From assembly GCA_016937345.1 (NCBI GenBank), contig JAFGWE010000032.1, positions 1 to 64,000 on the forward strand: DNA of 64,000 bases, in the 5' to 3' direction. Positions 19,569-27,941 of this stretch are shown piece by piece; within the stretch, counting starts at the first letter, position 1, and each line of letters opens with the position of its first letter. Made by a program: the position numbers and the translations under genes. The notes under the pieces were generated by a model, which saw only the letters and a list, made by a program, of their open reading frames with translations, searched no databases and had not been told where the DNA came from. This DNA comes from Methanomicrobiaceae archaeon. Its GTDB lineage: Archaea > Halobacteriota > Methanomicrobia > Methanomicrobiales > Methanomicrobiaceae.

Positions 19569-20798
19569 ATGAAATTTGGAACACTGGATGATATTGATAC
19601 AAATAAAAAAACCGTCCTTTTGCGTGTGGATTTCAACTCCCCTATTGATCCTGCGTCAAACCTGATTTTAGACGACAAGAGATTCCGCGAGCATGCACCA
19701 ACTGTAAACAATCTTTCTGACTCAAAAGTGGTGATAATAACTCACCAGAGCAGACCGCAGAAGAAAGATTATACAACTCTCGGGGCACATGCAGATCGTC
19801 TTGAACGTCTTATCGGAAGGCGTGTAGACTACATTGACGATATATTCGGAAGCTGTGCGAAAGAAGCCGTCAGAAAAATGGACTGCGGGGATATCCTGAT
19901 GCTTGAGAACGTAAGGTTCAATGCAGAGGAGAATCTTAAGATGGCGCCTGATGAGGCCGTTAACACCCATCTTGCACGTGGTCTTTCCTCTATGGGGGAT
20001 ATATACGTAAATGATGCATTCGGGACTGCTCACCGGTCTCAGCCGACAATAGTCGGTCTTCCGTTCTTAATGAAGTCTGTTGCAGGCACTCTCATGGAGA
20101 AAGAAGTGTCCTGTCTCTCAAAGGTTTTTTCAGACTCTCCAAAGCCTGTCACATTTGTTCTGGGCGGAACAAAGGTTGATGATTCAATAAGTGTTGCAAA
20201 AAATGTTCTTGAATGCAAAATTGCAGATATTGTTCTGGTTGTCGGAGTTGTTGCAAATGTATTTCTGGCGGCAAAGGGCTTAAACATTGGAAAACCCTCT
20301 ACAGATCTTATAAAAAAGCTTGGCTATTCCGGCGAGGTTGCAAAGGCCGCTGCAATACTGAAAGAATTCGGAGAAAAAGTTGTTCTTCCTGATTTTGTTG
20401 CAATAAGAAACAGTGACGGGAAAAGAGAGGAGGTCTCTGCTGACAAAATACCGGAAAACAGTCCTGTTCTTGACCTGGGACTTGACTCCCTCTCCTCTTT
20501 TACTGAAATCTTAAAAAATTCCGGAACCGTGGTGTTCAACGGGCCGGCAGGTCTTTTTGAAGAGGAAATATTCTCAACAGGAACCTTTGAACTGTTAAAG
20601 GCCGCAGCAAAATCAGAATTTTCAGTTGTGGGCGGCGGACACACCGCAGTTGTTGTGGAGTCTCTGGGAATAAATGATAATTTCAGCCATATATCAACAG
20701 GCGGCGGTGCATGTATTGAATTCATGACCGGCAAAAAACTTCCGGCATTATCAGCGCTTGAAAAAAGCTGGGAGCTGTTTGGGAAAAAACAGCAGTAA
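19569..20798 (+). CDS. pgk: Phosphoglycerate kinase
   Basis: A 409-residue glycolytic/gluconeogenic enzyme that interconverts 1,3-bisphosphoglycerate + ADP and 3-phosphoglycerate + ATP. Signature segments are LLRVDFNSPID near the N-terminus, ENVRFNAEEN, NDAFGTAHR, the nucleotide-domain VLGGTKVDDS, NGPAGLFE, and the terminal GGGHTAV and TGGGACIEF glycine loops. In a methanogen it mainly serves gluconeogenesis. The ATG at 19,569 is preferred over an in-frame TTG six codons upstream because it fits the family N-terminus. Monocistronic, facing the coenzyme M operon convergently. Confidence 0.95.
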   Translation: MKFGTLDDIDTNKKTVLLRVDFNSPIDPASNLILDDKRFREHAPTVNNLSDSKVVIITHQSRPQKKDYTTLGAHADRLERLIGRRVDYIDDIFGSCAKEAVRKMDCGDILMLENVRFNAEENLKMAPDEAVNTHLARGLSSMGDIYVNDAFGTAHRSQPTIVGLPFLMKSVAGTLMEKEVSCLSKVFSDSPKPVTFVLGGTKVDDSISVAKNVLECKIADIVLVVGVVANVFLAAKGLNIGKPSTDLIKKLGYSGEVAKAAAILKEFGEKVVLPDFVAIRNSDGKREEVSADKIPENSPVLDLGLDSLSSFTEILKNSGTVVFNGPAGLFEEEIFSTGTFELLKAAAKSEFSVVGGGHTAVVVESLGINDNFSHISTGGGACIEFMTGKKLPALSALEKSWELFGKKQQ

Positions 20799-20803
20799 AT
20801 TCC

Positions 20804-21910
20804 CTATAATGCTTCAATAAATCTCATTTTTATCTCTTCAGGGCTTAAGGGGAGATTTTTTGCATCAGAATTTCCCGGTCTGAGTATTACATGCAAAAAC
20901 CCGGGTCTTATATTTTCAGCCATAATCTCTCTTAATTCTTCTTTTCCCTGTGCAACGGCGGTACTTTTAATTCCTGCCGCAACTGCCATTAGTTCAAGAC
21001 TGCATCCGGTCCATGCATGGGTTATCTGCATTCCCGTACTTCCGAAAGCGCCGTTGTCAAGTGCAATAATTGTAAGATTTTTTGGGTTTTCTGCTGCAAT
21101 TACAGGGAGAATAGCTGTCCCAAGAAGGCTTCCGTCACCGTCTAATACAATCACATCTTTTTTCTGGCCGAGGGCAAGACCAAGACCAATTGGCGCTGCC
21201 TGGGTGTAGCTTCCAAGCATGTAGAAGTTTAAGTCCCTGTCCTTTGCAGTGTAAAGCTCCTTTGAAGGGACACCGATGTTGCAGACAACTGCCTCATCCA
21301 AAAGATAATCAGAAACAACTCCTATTGCATCAGCACGTGACATTTCGGGCTCTTTTATGCACCTTTCAAAGGAGATGTCGATACGATGCTCTCTTTTTGG
21401 AAACACGCTCTCACATGAAGAAATCTCTCCCTCCCAGACCTTCGGTGATATCAGAATCACATGAATTTCTGATTTAAGAAAGCAGTTTTTGATGATATCT
21501 TCAGCCACGCCAAGTTCTGAAGCCTCATTAATTATTGTGTATCTGATCTTAAGTGCATCCAGAATGCCGGGAATTTTGCTGTTGAAAGGTATCTGCGCAG
21601 GGATTTTTTCTTCGTAAAATCCTCTTAAGCTTGCAATAACAGGAAGCGGCAGACCGTAAAGATGTGTAAGTGACATAACAGCGTTGAGTGAGTTTCCAAG
21701 GCCTGAGCTCTGCATATGAAGAATAAACCTTCGTTTTGCAAGTGCAAGGCCTGCACAGACTCCTACTCCGTCCTCTTCGCGGTTAATATTCACATAATGA
21801 AAATCCCGTTCAAAAAAAGTGCAGAGATTCTTTGTTCTGTCGCATGGCAGCGATACTACAAAATCTATTCCCGCTCTCCTGCAAATATCCGATAGTAAAT
21901 CCTCATGCAT
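20804..21910 (-). CDS. comDE: Sulfopyruvate decarboxylase, fused ComD-ComE
   Basis: A 368-residue thiamine-diphosphate enzyme converting sulfopyruvate to sulfoacetaldehyde in coenzyme M synthesis. Residues 1-165 match the alpha (ComD) subunit (FVVSLPCDRTKN, then QSSGLGNSLNAV). From about residue 190 it matches the beta (ComE) subunit, with the diphosphate-binding motif VLDGDGSLLGT...LDNGAFGS and an AAPIGLGLALG loop. In Methanococcales these are two genes; here one chain carries both. It is the last gene of the coenzyme M operon and overlaps cysteate synthase by eight bases. Confidence 0.92.
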   Translation of the reverse strand: MHEDLLSDICRRAGIDFVVSLPCDRTKNLCTFFERDFHYVNINREEDGVGVCAGLALAKRRFILHMQSSGLGNSLNAVMSLTHLYGLPLPVIASLRGFYEEKIPAQIPFNSKIPGILDALKIRYTIINEASELGVAEDIIKNCFLKSEIHVILISPKVWEGEISSCESVFPKREHRIDISFERCIKEPEMSRADAIGVVSDYLLDEAVVCNIGVPSKELYTAKDRDLNFYMLGSYTQAAPIGLGLALGQKKDVIVLDGDGSLLGTAILPVIAAENPKNLTIIALDNGAFGSTGMQITHAWTGCSLELMAVAAGIKSTAVAQGKEELREIMAENIRPGFLHVILRPGNSDAKNLPLSPEEIKMRFIEAL

Positions 21911-23186
21911 GTTCTCTCACCCACCTTGAAATCTCATCTGAGAGCCCTTCTATGCCCTCACCTGCCGGCACCTCTGCGTAAACCTCTGCCGGAATAATTG
22001 AAAGCTCCTCTTTTGCACGTTTATAGCCGCCGCCTGTAATATTTAAAAGCACAGTCTCATCCGGCTTTATTATGCCGTCTTCTGCCGCCTCAATTAATGA
22101 TGCAAGACAGACTGCCGCTGCAGGGTCGATATCTGAGCCTTCGGTCTTTTCAAAAAGACTGCCTGCACTCTCTGCCTTCTCCTTTGATACAGGCACCATT
22201 ATGCCGTCTGTTGCAGAAAGTGCATCAAAAAGACCGCCGCATATCCCGTATGGAGGCGTTCTGTTTGTAAGAACAGGTGAATATACATTCATTGCAGCGT
22301 TTTTTGCATCAGGCATATCAGTATCCGGGATTATTTCACGCCTTTTATCTTTCCATGCATTTACCATGGGTGCGAATGTGTCATTCTGGGAGAGATAAAG
22401 CCGGGGGAGCTTATCTCCAAATCTTCCGTCTGAAATGAGCCTCATAGACATCTCATATGCGGCAATAGCGCCTGTACCGCTTCCGACAGCCTGGAAGTAC
22501 CAGTCAGGAATAATTCCGGCCGTTATCGCTCCGTCAAGAAGTGTTGTGCCCATTCCGTCCCTTCTTGCCGGATTTTTTGCCCCGCCTTCGGCAAGAACCC
22601 CGTCAATTGTGCAGACTTTGTTTCCAAACTCAATAGCGTCTGTATAATCGCCTTTTACTGTAATTAAAAGGACATTTTCTGCAGGCTTTGTTGTCCATAT
22701 ATTTTTTCGGGCGGAATCTGTTACAACGACAATAACAGGAAGATTAGTGTTTGCCGAAACCTCGCAAAAGGCCCTTCCTGTGTTTCCTGCCGAGGAAACC
22801 TGAATAACCCCCTTCTTTTTCTTCTCCTGCATCCTCAGCATTGTCGGGACAGCCTCAAGCTCCTTAAATGAGCATGAATTGTTATATGCACCTTTTTCCG
22901 GCCAGTAACCGTTGAATGATATGTAAAGGTTTAAAAGACCCAGCTCTTCTGCAAGACTTTTGCTCTTATATGTGACAGGGGCAGTCTTAACATCACAAAA
23001 ACCATCAACAGGAAGCCAGTCAGAAAACCTGAACATTCCCGGAAGGCTGCGCAGATGTATCTGCTTTGCCGCGTAATCTGCTCTTATAAGCGAATTGCAG
23101 TTATTTATGCAGGTGTTTGTGTGTTCATCCGGAAAAGTGCTCCCGCAGGAGAGGCACTTTAATTTATAATCTCCCGTTTTAATCAC
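21903..23186 (-). CDS. Cysteate synthase (threonine synthase-like PLP enzyme)
   Basis: A 427-residue PLP enzyme that makes L-cysteate from O-phosphoserine and sulfite, the entry reaction to coenzyme M in Methanosarcinales and Methanomicrobiales, replacing ComABC. It has the threonine-synthase-like zinc-ribbon-type start (KCLSCGSTF), a candidate PLP lysine in CSFKELEA, the SSAGNTGRAF phosphate loop and a TGGG-type glycine loop near the end (LLNITGGGYK). Its place between comDE and marker 16 supports cysteate rather than threonine synthase. The start codon lies nine bases after the marker 16 stop. Confidence 0.9.
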   Translation of the reverse strand: MIKTGDYKLKCLSCGSTFPDEHTNTCINNCNSLIRADYAAKQIHLRSLPGMFRFSDWLPVDGFCDVKTAPVTYKSKSLAEELGLLNLYISFNGYWPEKGAYNNSCSFKELEAVPTMLRMQEKKKKGVIQVSSAGNTGRAFCEVSANTNLPVIVVVTDSARKNIWTTKPAENVLLITVKGDYTDAIEFGNKVCTIDGVLAEGGAKNPARRDGMGTTLLDGAITAGIIPDWYFQAVGSGTGAIAAYEMSMRLISDGRFGDKLPRLYLSQNDTFAPMVNAWKDKRREIIPDTDMPDAKNAAMNVYSPVLTNRTPPYGICGGLFDALSATDGIMVPVSKEKAESAGSLFEKTEGSDIDPAAAVCLASLIEAAEDGIIKPDETVLLNITGGGYKRAKEELSIIPAEVYAEVPAGEGIEGLSDEISRWVREHA

Positions 23187-23195
23187 CTTAATTTT

Positions 23196-24422
23196 TTAGA
23201 GAAGGGAAAACTCCCCCTTCTCAATCATATTCTTTAGAACTTCTGTAATTTCACAGGCCCTGCTTCTGTCAGACTGCCTGAGTTTTACCGGAACAGAATT
23301 TCCCTCATATTCAAGAGCTCCCATATTCATGCTGTAAACTTCTCCCGGGCATGTATAGGTGCATGTACCGCAGGAAACGCATCTTGAAAGAATCACGCCT
23401 CCGCCGGGCATAATAGCCTTTGCGGGACAGGCAAGTCCGGCAGGACATTCTCCGCAGAACATACAGTTCAGGGGATTTGCCATGAGGCTCCGGTCAGTAT
23501 TCTGCCAGATATGCCCGTAGTCAGAATAGCCTTTTACACTTCTGTCAGTTATGTCAACAACCGGAACGGGTATATTTTCATCAAGAACGGAGAGATGATT
23601 TATTGTTTTTTCATCTAAAACCGGAATAGCTGCTGCAACTGATGTTATGCATTCAGGTCCTTTTGATGTCAGAAAGCCGCCCATGAATTCAGGCATCATA
23701 TTTTCCATATCCGCATGTGCCGAGATGTTTGGCTTATCTTTTGTGCTTCTTGTTCCTTCACCGATAATTCTTCCCTGAGCGCCGTTTAAAAGGATCTTTG
23801 CGCCCTGAATAAGGTATCTTCTCTCAGGATCGTTTTGAATGGGGTTTATCTCGCCGCAGCCTGAGACTGTCGCCTCAGACATATTTCCCTGCAGCGGAAG
23901 AACTGAAAATATTGTCTCAAAAGGTGAATTTGTGCCGTTTACAAAGGCGGAATAATTTTTAAAGGCACTTCTTGACGTAATCATCCTTGCAGACTCAAGA
24001 TCCTCTCCGTATATCTGATTTTCATAGGTTTTCCCCTCTGATTCACAGACGACCTCAATGTCCTTTCCCTCAACAATATCTCTTAAGAGGTGGCCTCCGC
24101 CGTAACTTTTTGATGCATGTGATGTTGCAAAGAGGACTATGTCTGCTGTACCAAGCCCCTCATTGGGGCAGGGCCCGGGAAAACACGGAACGCCGTTTAA
24201 AGTTACCTTCTCTGCACGCCTGAAAACTCCCGGTTTTGTAACCGGGACTGTCATAACCGCAAATGTGCCTGACATAACACCGCATGTCCCGCAGGTTACA
24301 ACATCGACATCCTCTGGCGAGGGGGTATTTCCCTCTCTTATCATTGCCTTAAATTCATCTGCCGTGCAGACAACCGCATTCCCGTCTTTTATCTTCTCTT
24401 CAATATCAAAAACAGACTTCAT
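23196..24422 (-). CDS. Methanogenesis marker 16 metalloprotein (COG1900; ComF candidate)
   Basis: A 408-residue protein of the COG1900/DUF39 family, related to homocysteine-forming enzymes that insert sulfide into aldehydes. Most of the length is the DUF39 domain, with CGTCGVMSGTFAV near residues 44-56 and PCFPGPCPNEG. The C-terminus carries two 4Fe-4S ferredoxin motifs (CMFCGECPAGLACP and CVSCGTCTYTCP). A member of this family has been reported to convert sulfoacetaldehyde to coenzyme M, which fits its position beside comDE. The ATG chosen overlaps the upstream stop (ATGA); a longer frame would only run into that gene. Confidence 0.9.
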   Translation of the reverse strand: MKSVFDIEEKIKDGNAVVCTADEFKAMIREGNTPSPEDVDVVTCGTCGVMSGTFAVMTVPVTKPGVFRRAEKVTLNGVPCFPGPCPNEGLGTADIVLFATSHASKSYGGGHLLRDIVEGKDIEVVCESEGKTYENQIYGEDLESARMITSRSAFKNYSAFVNGTNSPFETIFSVLPLQGNMSEATVSGCGEINPIQNDPERRYLIQGAKILLNGAQGRIIGEGTRSTKDKPNISAHADMENMMPEFMGGFLTSKGPECITSVAAAIPVLDEKTINHLSVLDENIPVPVVDITDRSVKGYSDYGHIWQNTDRSLMANPLNCMFCGECPAGLACPAKAIMPGGGVILSRCVSCGTCTYTCPGEVYSMNMGALEYEGNSVPVKLRQSDRSRACEITEVLKNMIEKGEFSLL

Positions 24423-25069
24423 AGAATCCTTATATCCTCCACTCTGACATGCAGGCCGCTTTTTTTTTGGACAAGAAGGTTTACAACCCCTGTGTGCCCG
24501 AGGTTCATCATACAAAACCCCGGAAGAAATCTCTGCCTTCTTCCAAATTCCGGTTCGGAATTGATTGTCTGAGCAATGCCTTCAAAACCTATTATATGGT
24601 ACGCACGGATATCCTTTATTTTTTCAGGGTTTTCCCTTGCAACAAAAGGGCTTATTACATGGGATGTTATGACCCCTGTAATGAAGTCGGCATCAATTAC
24701 GGATAACACATGCTGTACTGGACATCCGGCACCCTGCGGCCGCCCGAGTACGATATCGCCCTTTTTAATCTCCATCTTTTCGGTTAAATCAGGCCTGAAG
24801 GGAAGAACAATCTTTCTTGCCGAAGGCTCGTCTTTTAATGGATGAATCACAAAATCATAAGGCTTTTTTAAAACGTCATAACCTGTAAATACCATATTTT
24901 CTGCTGTTTTGCAGCCGGCAAAATCATTTGTTCCACTGGTATAAAACGGGCAGTCCTCAGGCTCTTTTTCTCCGGAATTAAGGCATTTTTCAAATTCACT
25001 GCATAAATTAAGGCCGCAGGCCCCGCAGTTTTTCCCCGGATTTTTCCAGAAGGATTTTTCGTTCTGCAT
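24419..25069 (-). CDS. Fe-S cluster protein of the coenzyme M operon
   Basis: A 216-residue protein. It starts with a four-Cys cluster, NCGACGLNLCSEFEKC then DCPFY (about residues 13-42), which is the 4Fe-4S pattern of PF04060-type domains. The remaining ~170 residues form a mixed alpha/beta domain including MEIKKGDIVLGRPQGAGCPVQH, whose Cys may be functional. No enzyme name can be given. It is translationally coupled on both sides: one base after the P-loop protein's stop, and overlapping the marker 16 start by four bases. A role in sulfur or electron delivery to the marker 16 enzyme is an inference. Confidence 0.8.
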   Translation of the reverse strand: MQNEKSFWKNPGKNCGACGLNLCSEFEKCLNSGEKEPEDCPFYTSGTNDFAGCKTAENMVFTGYDVLKKPYDFVIHPLKDEPSARKIVLPFRPDLTEKMEIKKGDIVLGRPQGAGCPVQHVLSVIDADFITGVITSHVISPFVARENPEKIKDIRAYHIIGFEGIAQTINSEPEFGRRQRFLPGFCMMNLGHTGVVNLLVQKKSGLHVRVEDIRIL

Positions 25070-25070
25070 T

Positions 25071-25778
25071 TTAGTCGCCCCTGAAGAAAAAATCTCCTGA
25101 ATCAAGTTTTCTTATAACACCGAAATGGTTCTCCCATCCAATCTCTTTTTTGCCCACACATACGGTGCAGACACCAAGAGGGGGGTTTCCCCTGAGAACT
25201 ACTTTATCCAGATCTTCTATCTCAGGCTGGTTTTCTATCGCCCGAAAGAGGTAACGCAGGCCGGTACCGCAAAGGGCGTTTGTCTCAACAATGTCGAGAT
25301 CTCTGCCGACCTCTTTAATTCTCTCCCGGAAGACCTCCTTTTCAGCCTGTGAGACGAGATCAACTCTTGTAACTACTGCCAGATCTGAAAGTGCAAGCAT
25401 TGCAGACATTTTTAAGGGTGAATTTGTCCCGGATATTGCACTTAAAACTGCAATCCCAAGCGACTGTGTGGTATAAGGCGAACATCTAAGGCAGAGTCCG
25501 GCACTTTCCACTATTAAAATGTCGGCGTTGTTATCTTCTGCCCAATTTACAGCATCCTTCATTACAAGAATACCTACATGATCAGGGCAGACATCGCCAG
25601 AGTAAATTTTTTTTGTCGGAATTTTAAACTCATCATAGAGCTCCTTGTCTTCAAATGCCCTGACCACATCAATTTTAAGGTAGGCACATCTGCTGACAGG
25701 ATTGAACCGGGAGATAATCTGTCTTACTACAGCAGTCTTTCCTGCAGATGGCGGCCCTGCAATAATTAAAAGTTTCAT
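25071..25778 (-). CDS. CobW/HypB-like P-loop nucleotide-binding protein
   Basis: A 235-residue SIMIBI-class P-loop protein. Walker A GPPSAGKT is at residues 8-15, a Walker B-like strand ILIVESAGLCLRCSP follows, and VVTRVDLV resembles the NKxD guanine-specificity region. Two CxxC-type pairs (LCLRC and VCTVCVGKK) could bind metal or a cluster. HypB, UreG and CobW relatives insert metals or chaperone cofactors using GTP or ATP. It overlaps the upstream ATPase by four bases (ATGA). Its place in a coenzyme M operon suggests activation or cofactor loading of one of the downstream enzymes, an inference without direct proof. Confidence 0.8.
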   Translation of the reverse strand: MKLLIIAGPPSAGKTAVVRQIISRFNPVSRCAYLKIDVVRAFEDKELYDEFKIPTKKIYSGDVCPDHVGILVMKDAVNWAEDNNADILIVESAGLCLRCSPYTTQSLGIAVLSAISGTNSPLKMSAMLALSDLAVVTRVDLVSQAEKEVFRERIKEVGRDLDIVETNALCGTGLRYLFRAIENQPEIEDLDKVVLRGNPPLGVCTVCVGKKEIGWENHFGVIRKLDSGDFFFRGD

Positions 25779-26554
25779 AGTACCGGGATGCTTTTTATCA
25801 GTTCACCGCAGCGAATCCTCTCACGAAGAAGAGACATCGCCGAATCCATTCTTAAAACCTCTGAGAGTGCCTCTTTTTCTGAATCCCCTGGTGAGATTAT
25901 GTCTGATACGGCACCGTTTTTCATGACAATTCTTCTCTCTGAGAGAAGAGAAACAAGGGGGTCATGTGTAACGAAGAGAAGTGCTTTATTGTGGGTTTTA
26001 AGGCATTCAATGACCTTCTCCTTGAAAATTCCCGCATTTTCAATCTCATCAAGAAGAATAACAGGGGTGTCTGATACAACGATTGCATCGGCAACCATTA
26101 AAGATCTTGTCTGGCCTCCGGAAAGAGAGGTCATTCTGGCTTCTTTTCTAATTTTTTCGCCCGTAAACTCATTTGCAAGGCTTATGGTCTTTTCAATAAC
26201 AAAAGGGTCACTGAGTTTTCGGGATTTTATGTGCATGTCCAGAAAGGATTCAACCGTAAGGTCTGCGAGGCATTTTGTATTCTGGGTTATCATGGCGATG
26301 GGTTTTTTGGAAGGATCACGGATGAATTCCTCAGGCGGCATTTTCCCGTTTACTAAAACAGTCCTTTTTGTTACTGTATCCTCGTGTGCAAACATCTCAA
26401 TGTCGTTTATAAAAGCGCTTTTTCCCGAACCTGTCGGTCCGACTATTGATATTGTATCTCCGGGCCTGATTGTTATCTGTCTGAAATTTTCAGTCCCGCC
26501 ATTTCTGTTTTTTCCGGGCAGGACAGTTATCTCCATTATTTCAGAGTTATGCAT
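25775..26554 (-). CDS. ABC-type ATPase without a permease partner, first gene of the coenzyme M operon
   Basis: An ABC-fold ATPase of about 255-270 residues. Walker A is GPTGSGKS, a Q-loop segment MITQNTK, signature TSLSGGQTRS, Walker B VILLDEIENAG (a variant of DEP) and the switch His in FVTHDPLV. No membrane protein is encoded nearby, so it is probably not a transporter but a soluble ABC ATPase like AtwA (component A2, an MCR activator) or SufC. Starts at 26,587, 26,554 and 26,536 are all possible; a TATA-like TTTATTATA near 26,560 favours one of the inner two. The following gene overlaps by ATGA. Confidence 0.8.
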   Translation of the reverse strand: MHNSEIMEITVLPGKNRNGGTENFRQITIRPGDTISIVGPTGSGKSAFINDIEMFAHEDTVTKRTVLVNGKMPPEEFIRDPSKKPIAMITQNTKCLADLTVESFLDMHIKSRKLSDPFVIEKTISLANEFTGEKIRKEARMTSLSGGQTRSLMVADAIVVSDTPVILLDEIENAGIFKEKVIECLKTHNKALLFVTHDPLVSLLSERRIVMKNGAVSDIISPGDSEKEALSEVLRMDSAMSLLRERIRCGELIKSIPVL

Positions 26555-26587
26555 AACTATAATAAAACGTAAACTCTGATAAATCAT

Positions 26588-26816: not shown

Positions 26817-27350
26817 ATGTATGCTGAATACCTCCCGGCCGCAGCAAAAAAAGTCCGGTATGGTGCACCTGACTGCAATGTGATCCTGAGAATATGTGAA
26901 TTTAATGTCAGAAGAGATGAACCGGAGATGACAGGGATTAACGATTATCAGAACCAGTCTTCATGCAGCATTGAAAAGGAGGCTGTATTTTCAGACTTTT
27001 TTAAATATTCTGCCGAAGACGATCTCCTCTTCCCTGATAAAGAATGCTGTGCAGAAAATTACTGCGACTTAAATATTCCTCCTGAAGATGAACTCTCAAA
27101 AATAAAGGCTTATCTTTGGATTGCAGAGAAAGAATCTTCAGATGTGTCCCGGCTTTCATCACTTCTCAAAACTGCAGAAGAGAGATATAATTCAGGGGAC
27201 ACCATGTGCTTTTATGAGACAGTTGACGCATTTTATGCAATATATGAGATTATGTGCAGCGGCAGGGGCGGCCGCCTTTATCCATCCGGCGATTATCTTT
27301 CATTTTCATCCGAACCTTTGCGGTTCAGCCCTATAAATCCGTATCTTTAA
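26817..27350 (+). CDS. Hypothetical acidic cysteine-containing protein
   Basis: Not recognised. A frame of 177 codons; an internal ATG at 26,928 (protein starting MTGINDYQNQ) is an alternative and would give about 140 residues. The protein is acidic with scattered cysteines (ECCAENYC) and predicted helices in the middle (SKIKAYLWIAEKESSDVSRLSSLLKTAEERY is cut here as three segments: SKIKAYLWIAEK, SSDVSRLSSLL, KTAEERYNSGD). No signal peptide or membrane helix is visible. It is transcribed divergently from the coenzyme M operon and upstream of an XRE regulator gene. Coding status is supported by third-position pattern and length only. Confidence 0.6.
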   Translation: MYAEYLPAAAKKVRYGAPDCNVILRICEFNVRRDEPEMTGINDYQNQSSCSIEKEAVFSDFFKYSAEDDLLFPDKECCAENYCDLNIPPEDELSKIKAYLWIAEKESSDVSRLSSLLKTAEERYNSGDTMCFYETVDAFYAIYEIMCSGRGGRLYPSGDYLSFSSEPLRFSPINPYL

Positions 27351-27452: not shown

Positions 27453-27941
27453 ATGCTCTCAAAAAGAATTTTTGAGTCAGGGTTTAAGCTGGCTCTTGAG
27501 GAGGAGCTTACAAGAAAGCGGGTAAGCATAAAAGAGCTTGCCGAATTAGCAGGCATTCCTCCGGCGACAATCTATAAAATAACCTCCGGGGAAAGAGACC
27601 CGCGCTTTTCAACTGTATTTGCGATAGTAAATGCTCTTGAACCCCGGGAAAATGGTTTTGTCGCAATAATTGCAGCGAAATTTTTGCTTGACGAGATTGA
27701 GTCAAAAATGATTCCTATAGGCAAAAAAGAATTCAGAGTGAAAGGCTATCCTGCCTATACTATGGAGGAGTGCATTGTATCTGCCGTTCGTGCTGAAAAG
27801 GAAGGAGCACGGGGAATTGTGTGTGCACCTATTCTGGCATCAATAATCGAAAAGGTTGTTGATGTTCCTGTAGCGATTATAAAACCGGATACAAAAACAA
27901 TAACAGACGCTTTACAGTCACTTCAGAACAGAATGGAATAA
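27453..27941 (+). CDS. XRE-type helix-turn-helix transcriptional regulator
   Basis: A 162-residue regulator. Residues about 15-65 form an HTH_3 (Cro/C1) domain: a helix, then SIKELAELAGIPPATIYKITSG with the recognition helix, then RDPRFSTVFAIVNAL. The C-terminal ~80 residues form a small alpha/beta domain (PAYTMEECIVSAVRAEKEG; GIVCAPILASIIEK; VPVAIIKPD) that resembles the ligand-binding half of PrpR-N-like sensory domains and could bind a small metabolite. It is monocistronic and lies beside the coenzyme M operon and the orphan acidic gene, but no regulatory link is visible. Confidence 0.82.
   Translation: MLSKRIFESGFKLALEEELTRKRVSIKELAELAGIPPATIYKITSGERDPRFSTVFAIVNALEPRENGFVAIIAAKFLLDEIESKMIPIGKKEFRVKGYPAYTMEECIVSAVRAEKEGARGIVCAPILASIIEKVVDVPVAIIKPDTKTITDALQSLQNRME

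Follow-up and report, generated by a model that had tools for sequence, protein, structure and literature searches.

A stretch of 64,000 nucleotides from the genome of a Methanomicrobiaceae archaeon (GenBank accession number JAFGWE010000032.1, positions 1–64,000, referred to here as the window) contains six co-directional open genes on the minus strand, at positions 20804–26587. These encode an ATP-binding cassette (ABC) ATPase, a P-loop nucleoside triphosphatase (NTPase) resembling CobW and HypB (PLP), an iron-sulfur (Fe-S) protein (FES), methanogenesis marker 16 protein (MMP16), cysteate synthase (CS) and a fused sulfopyruvate decarboxylase (ComDE), and are listed in Table 1. Here, we examined the operon, and in particular the first three genes (the trio), in relation to the synthesis of coenzyme M (CoM).

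The operon and the three trio proteins

When the gene starts were corrected by homology, the ABC and PLP genes overlapped by 4 bases, PLP and FES were separated by 1 base, FES and MMP16 overlapped by 4 bases (ATGA), MMP16 and CS were 9 bases apart and CS and ComDE overlapped by 8 bases. The start of MMP16 was placed at 24422 because alignments with its relatives begin at residue 32 of the longer open reading frame (ORF), that of FES was placed at the ATG at 25069, and the relatives of the ABC ATPase suggest that its true start may be the ATG at 26554. A string of six genes with overlaps of 4–8 bases or gaps of at most 9 bases had been described in an earlier, sequence-only reading of this DNA, and the corrected junctions, which range from -8 to +9, agree with it. 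The operon converges at its 3' end with an ORF resembling phosphoglycerate kinase, whose stop lies at 20798, and its head faces divergent genes (26817 and 27453, plus strand). Of the 30 best Methanomicrobia loci, 29 share the order ABC-PLP-FES-MMP16-CS, and the arrangement is therefore not due to chance.

Assignment of the last three genes to the CoM route, as proposed in the same reading, was confirmed by curated family models (Table 1) and by published genetics. Genetic evidence identifies MMP16 as the primary CoM synthase (ComF) of Methanosarcina acetivorans (Chadwick et al. 2025, PMC12068725), and the MMP16 in the window is ComF by family membership, activity having been demonstrated only in M. 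acetivorans. Chadwick et al. also recorded the frequent co-localization of CoM genes with those for an ATPase, a Ni2+-binding GTPase and a COG2000 Fe-S protein, whose role they gave as unknown (Fig 2 legend, PMC12068725). The same three gene types lie beside MMP16 and other CoM genes in the clusters they describe. As the co-localization has been published, its observation in the window is not new. What is new is the distribution in bacteria, the cysteine desulfurase partner, the existence of two lineages, the tighter link to CS, a second set of conserved Cys and His residues in FES and a divergent helix-turn-helix (HTH) gene. PMC12068725 was the sole match when the literature was searched for the bacterial gene set or COG2000.

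The D-loop of the ABC ATPase, LLDEIENAGI, is diagnostic of its family, and the Walker A motif, the SGGQ signature, DE[IV]ENAGI and THDP were retained in almost all of the 78 bacterial and archaeal relatives. In two cases, L016/L046 (G057) and L159 (Methanogenium cariaci), the ABC gene was broken into at least two frames, which could be decay or sequencing error. SufC is likewise a soluble ABC ATPase that works without a permease in Fe-S assembly. Unlike SufC, the ABC ATPase of the trio had no SufB or SufD nearby and is tied to SufC by no family model.

PLP carries the CobW/HypB/UreG NTPase domain and shares with these proteins the P-loop superfamily and conserved Cys and His residues. It differs in falling under the cut-off of the HypB model TIGR00073 (54 bits against 121, with bacterial relatives at 35–74 bits), in its extra CxxC pairs and in being almost always coupled to an ABC ATPase of the ENAGI type. 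Almost all of the 76 bacterial and 71 archaeal relatives retained Cys64, His67, Cys96, Cys99, Cys204 and Cys207, although Cys96 and Cys99 belonged to the search motif.

FES (residues numbered from the Met at 25069) has an N-terminal [4Fe-4S] domain of the type found in the large subunit of CFeSP, with Cys15, Cys18, Cys23 and Cys40, followed by a beta-rich C-terminal domain in which Cys116, His120, Cys186 and His192 were invariant in the 64 sequences compared. The AlphaFold model had a mean predicted local distance difference test score (pLDDT) of 91. A Foldseek search of the PDB with this model gave no match with E ≤ 0.001, no whole-domain match and no fold match for the C-terminal domain. The N-terminal domain gave weak, high-probability matches to CFeSP (9fzy_F, probability 0.97, root-mean-square deviation 1.0 over 34 columns), and there was also a sequence match to the CFeSP structure 4djd. 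Unlike CFeSP, FES has no corrinoid domain (only PF04060 was found) and in its place has the beta-rich domain. The four Cys and His residues of that domain probably form one second metal site. In L059, L060 and L151 no ATG, GTG or TTG start yields a full-length FES and the match continues upstream, which suggests that a different start codon is used or that the 5' end is damaged. Stand-alone second copies of the trio were found amid genes for secreted proteins in L040, L041 and L042, and in these FES is extended at its C terminus and finishes with a tail rich in His, Asp and Gly.

Table 1. Positions, strand and family assignment of the features in the window (aa, amino acids; TIGR03287, TIGR03844, TIGR03845 and TIGR03846 are NCBIfam models)
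Feature	Positions	Strand	Length (aa)	Basis
ABC-type ATPase	25775–26587	minus	270	PF00005, 55 bits, over cut-off
PLP, CobW/HypB-like P-loop NTPase	25071–25778	minus	235	PF02492, 46.8 against gathering score 20.7
FES, Fe-S protein	24419–25069	minus		PF04060, over cut-off
MMP16 / ComF, coenzyme M synthase (by family)	23196–24422	minus	408	TIGR03287, 510 bits against curated cut-off 364 (positions 1–391); PF01837, 330 bits
MMP16 Cys258 codon	23649–23651	minus		motif GPEC
Cysteate synthase (GTG start)	21903–23186	minus	427	TIGR03844, 616 bits against 325
Fused sulfopyruvate decarboxylase ComDE	20804–21910	minus	368	ComD half TIGR03845, 185 bits against 148; ComE half TIGR03846, 220.2 bits against 221.5, just under
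Helix-turn-helix protein	27453–27941	plus		HTH_3 PF01381, over cut-off

A portable module in bacteria and archaea

A DNA pattern for the PLP motif E[ST]AGLC[LF]RCxP was used to scan contigs from one genome per species, a search that covered no Methanobacteria or Methanococci. At least 117 loci were found: at least 43 in archaea and at least 74 in bacteria, the latter spanning no fewer than 15 phyla. Among the 74 bacterial loci listed, ABC adjoined PLP in 67 and FES was present in 50, counts that are bounded by where the fetched stretch ends, and MMP16, CS and ComDE were found in none. ABC-PLP-FES is an independent, portable three-gene module. The distribution in bacteria was patchy: 1 of 119 Bacteroidia genomes had the module, and in a Clostridia-type class 7 of 98 genomes had the full trio. 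In L200–L206, from Clostridia, a related PLP-ABC pair without FES was found near genes for a SAM methyltransferase, solute-binding proteins and radical-SAM proteins, and forms a separate branch of the family.

Of the 74 bacterial loci listed, 27 had a cysteine desulfurase of the NifS/IscS type close to the trio, usually in the order ABC-PLP-NifS-FES, while about one would be expected in the approximately 538 kb covered under our own assumption of approximately one gene per Mb. Rrf2 regulators were present in 20 of the 74. Some Bacteroidota loci add CRP-type regulators and a HydE-family protein, and some Bacillota copies adjoin a NifU-type scaffold, a NUBPL/Mrp iron-transfer ATPase, a FeMo-co-type protein and DUF364. 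The ABC-PLP-NifS-FES arrangement of bacteria was also found in one methanogen (G068), distant from the CoM genes. A second trio in a genome of the same genus as the window (L039, 295–6756) adjoins genes for ThiS, ThiF, a CysK-like protein and DUF5591, and genes resembling an ASKHA-type activator and a corrinoid methyltransferase were seen further along, by eye only.

The frequent association with a cysteine desulfurase in bacteria indicates that the trio probably handles sulfur or Fe-S clusters. Several of these partners (NifS/IscS, Rrf2, NifU and Mrp) are those of ISC/NIF Fe-S assembly. Unlike ISC/NIF, the trio has its own ABC ATPase, a HypB-like NTPase and an FES with two sites, and the operon in the window has no scaffold or desulfurase. 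The sequence-only reading had named occurrence in non-methanogens with unrelated neighbours as something that would refute its proposal. The trio does occur at many bacterial loci away from CoM genes, but many of the neighbours there are sulfur genes.

Linkage to coenzyme M genes and separate lineages

In a set of 217 Halobacteriota genomes, FES was found in 53, MMP16 in 100 and CS in 92. FES co-occurred with CS in 50 genomes and with MMP16 in 49; Fisher p values for co-occurrence are descriptive only, because the genomes are related. CS lay no more than 6 kb from FES in 46 of the 50 genomes, and MMP16 did so in 38 of the 49. In L044, L046, L131 and L177 the trio directly precedes CS-ComDE with no MMP16 between. 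Methanolobus and related Methanosarcinaceae have the order CS-ABC-PLP-FES-ComD-ComE, with MMP16 convergent or elsewhere, and Methanothrix types have CS-ABC-PLP-FES. Because it lies closer to CS than to MMP16 and is retained after loss of MMP16, the trio is not a mere accessory of ComF and belongs to the CoM pathway. A Methanomicrobiales-type trio-CS operon was also found in L132, from a metagenome-assembled genome labelled Nanohalarchaeota that has no MMP16 over cut-off, and is likely a foreign contig or a transfer.

A tree built from PLP and ABC did not place the Methanomicrobiales-type trio, which lies near the trio of Bacillota, and the Methanosarcinales-type trio in one clade (approximately unbiased test, p = 5e-6; log-likelihood difference 181). 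Taken with the differing gene orders, this result suggests that the trio entered CoM clusters on two or more separate occasions, though there may instead have been one ancient entry with later transfers out to bacteria. Outside the order Methanomicrobiales, MMP16 and the trio stood together as one block in genomes of Methanomassiliicoccales type and in a pair of Methanosarcina genomes (L103, L145, L252–L255), both of which have a native MMP16 without a trio and a second MMP16 with its own trio.

The HTH_3 protein encoded at the divergent head of the operon is a candidate regulator of the trio operon or the CoM pathway. Relatives were found in 18 trio loci, mostly divergent at the operon head and usually 32–104 bases from ABC, and also upstream of CS in two Methanothrix-type loci. 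In the window, an ORF at 26817–27350 separates the HTH gene from the operon. The C-terminal part of the protein is weakly like PrpR_N.

Possible roles of the trio

The data establish which genes make up the module, their order, distribution and partners, the conserved residues and the two lineages in CoM clusters; from these observations we infer a delivery function, its direction and clients and its use of ATP as follows. The soluble ABC ATPase, the HypB/CobW-like NTPase with its Cys/His set and FES would form one machine, to which FES would contribute a [4Fe-4S] domain of the low-potential type and the second probable metal site. This machine may be an ATP-driven module for delivery of sulfur or Fe-S clusters. 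In many bacteria, the sulfur would come from the dedicated cysteine desulfurase whose gene lies between those for PLP and FES. Where the module is placed in CoM clusters of methanogens, this desulfurase is missing, and the sulfur would therefore presumably come from sulfide or the general pool. The activated sulfur or cluster would then be passed to enzymes of the CoM pathway, in this genome most likely to MMP16/ComF, possibly at Cys258. We give about an even chance to the trio being an ATP-driven sulfur or Fe-S delivery module that serves the CoM pathway, with ComF a likely client but not the only one. The sequence-only reading had gone further and proposed a machine devoted to the thiolation step. 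The presence of NifS, NifU/Mrp and ThiS/ThiF neighbours favours the sulfur or Fe-S delivery it had in mind, but a role specific to thiolation was not supported, given the closer link to CS, the persistence of the trio beside CS and ComDE where MMP16 has been lost and its absence from many genomes that have MMP16 and CS.

Several observations weigh against delivery to the CoM pathway. The operon itself has no desulfurase or scaffold gene. The possibility that most genomes with both MMP16 and CS would lack the trio had been raised at the outset; FES was present in 48 of 84 such genomes and absent from 36, Methanosarcina-like genomes included. MMP16 of M. acetivorans works without a trio, and MMP16 has been reported to make CoM in Escherichia coli (PMC12068725). 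In G007, a genome assembled as one contig and 99% complete, the trio is followed by CS and ComDE (ABC-PLP-FES-CS-ComDE) and no MMP16 match exceeds the cut-off.

The evidence for Cys258 as the contact point is similarly divided. This residue, in the motif GPEC, was found in all 64 MMP16 rows from genomes with a CoM-linked trio versus 16 of 54 other rows. In Methanosarcina G240 and G241 and in ANME-1 G209, the trio-linked MMP16 has GPEC and the other copy in the same genome has GPEI or GPEV. However, those 16 other rows have Cys258 without a CoM-linked trio, and the association, which stood at 64/66 versus 9/27 at first count, weakened once trio-less ANME-1 copies with the Cys were added. It was not significant when phylogeny was considered (two informative independent pairs, p = 0.5). 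As the trait changes only three times on the tree and only two pairs are informative, Cys258 is a lead rather than evidence of mechanism. In ANME-1 G073, G091, G105, G111, G164 and G175, ComA adjoins a Methanomicrobiales-like MMP16 with GPEC or SPEC, without CS or a trio.

The main rival explanation stems from the fact that CS and ComA share sulfite as a substrate: what the trio supplies may be sulfite, for making sulfonates, and not the thiol sulfur for ComF. According to PMC6286981 it is unclear where the sulfite for CoM comes from, and the greater proximity of FES to CS than to MMP16, the CS-trio arrangement alone in Methanothrix types and the retention of trio, CS and ComDE after loss of MMP16 would all fit. 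In the Clostridia-type class, ComA was present in 7 of 7 full-trio genomes and in 10 of 91 others (p = 1.4e-6, with no phylogenetic correction). ComA adjoins the trio in a Clostridiales genome, there together with ComB, and in a Peptococcaceae genome (loci L113 and L158). However, 14 of the 15 Halobacteriota genomes with ComA have no trio, most trio bacteria outside Bacillota have no ComA over cut-off, CS of Methanosarcina works without a trio and no chemistry is known by which such proteins would form sulfite anaerobically. On balance, we consider this explanation unlikely. Scattered ComA matches in IscS-type trio bacteria, mostly under cut-off and in a housekeeping setting in Bacteroidia, were not used as evidence.

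An ATP-driven donor of low-potential electrons, in which the two ATPases would drive the [4Fe-4S] domain of FES to reduce the thiolation reaction or the clusters of ComF, would suit the resemblance of that domain to CFeSP (9fzy_F, 4djd) and the requirement of the thiolation step for 2–4 electrons (PMC12068725). It is improbable, as it leaves the cysteine desulfurase, ThiS/ThiF and NifU partners and the linkage to CS unexplained, and MMP16 carries its own ferredoxin domain. A system for insertion of nickel or another metal is also quite doubtful. It is suggested by the likeness of PLP to HypB and UreG, its invariant Cys/His set, the name Ni2+-binding GTPase used in PMC12068725 and the His/Asp-rich FES tails of the three stand-alone copies, but the CoM pathway is not known to include a nickel enzyme, the HypB score is under the curated cut-off and the neighbours are sulfur or Fe-S genes rather than nickel genes. 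An importer of CoM or a sulfonate, which the ABC fold and the existence of CoM uptake via ssu-type ABC transporters (PMC12068725) might bring to mind, was rejected as very improbable, as no permease or other membrane gene and no substrate-binding gene lies within the operon or recurs in the vicinity of the full trio, the ENAGI D-loop is unusual and ABC is tightly coupled to PLP across domains of life.

Two known systems were also set aside. For the Sao (selenocysteine-assisted organometal) system, a permease near one bacterial trio weakly resembled SaoE (116 of 325 bits) and no scanned trio protein matched a Sao family, and PADLOC defence systems gave weak generic ATPase matches only.

Returning to delivery of sulfur or clusters, a broader form of this reading is that ABC-PLP-(NifS)-FES is an undescribed system that mobilizes sulfur or builds metalloclusters, patchily distributed in bacteria and methanogens, and was taken at least twice independently into clusters for CoM or other sulfonates, where it would feed activated sulfur (or sulfite) into a step that has no assigned sulfur source. 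We propose this tentatively, at somewhat less than an even chance. The bacterial quartet with the cysteine desulfurase, brought to light here, was not described in the literature searched. How sulfur enters CoM is a question both for the sulfite of the sulfonate and for the sulfur of the thiol, and the paper that assigned ComF in 2025 offered no explanation for the trio. If the trio does deliver sulfur or Fe-S clusters, it would be a testable candidate for the sulfur donor and would help to explain a possible difference in the behaviour of ComF in those Methanosarcina that have no trio.

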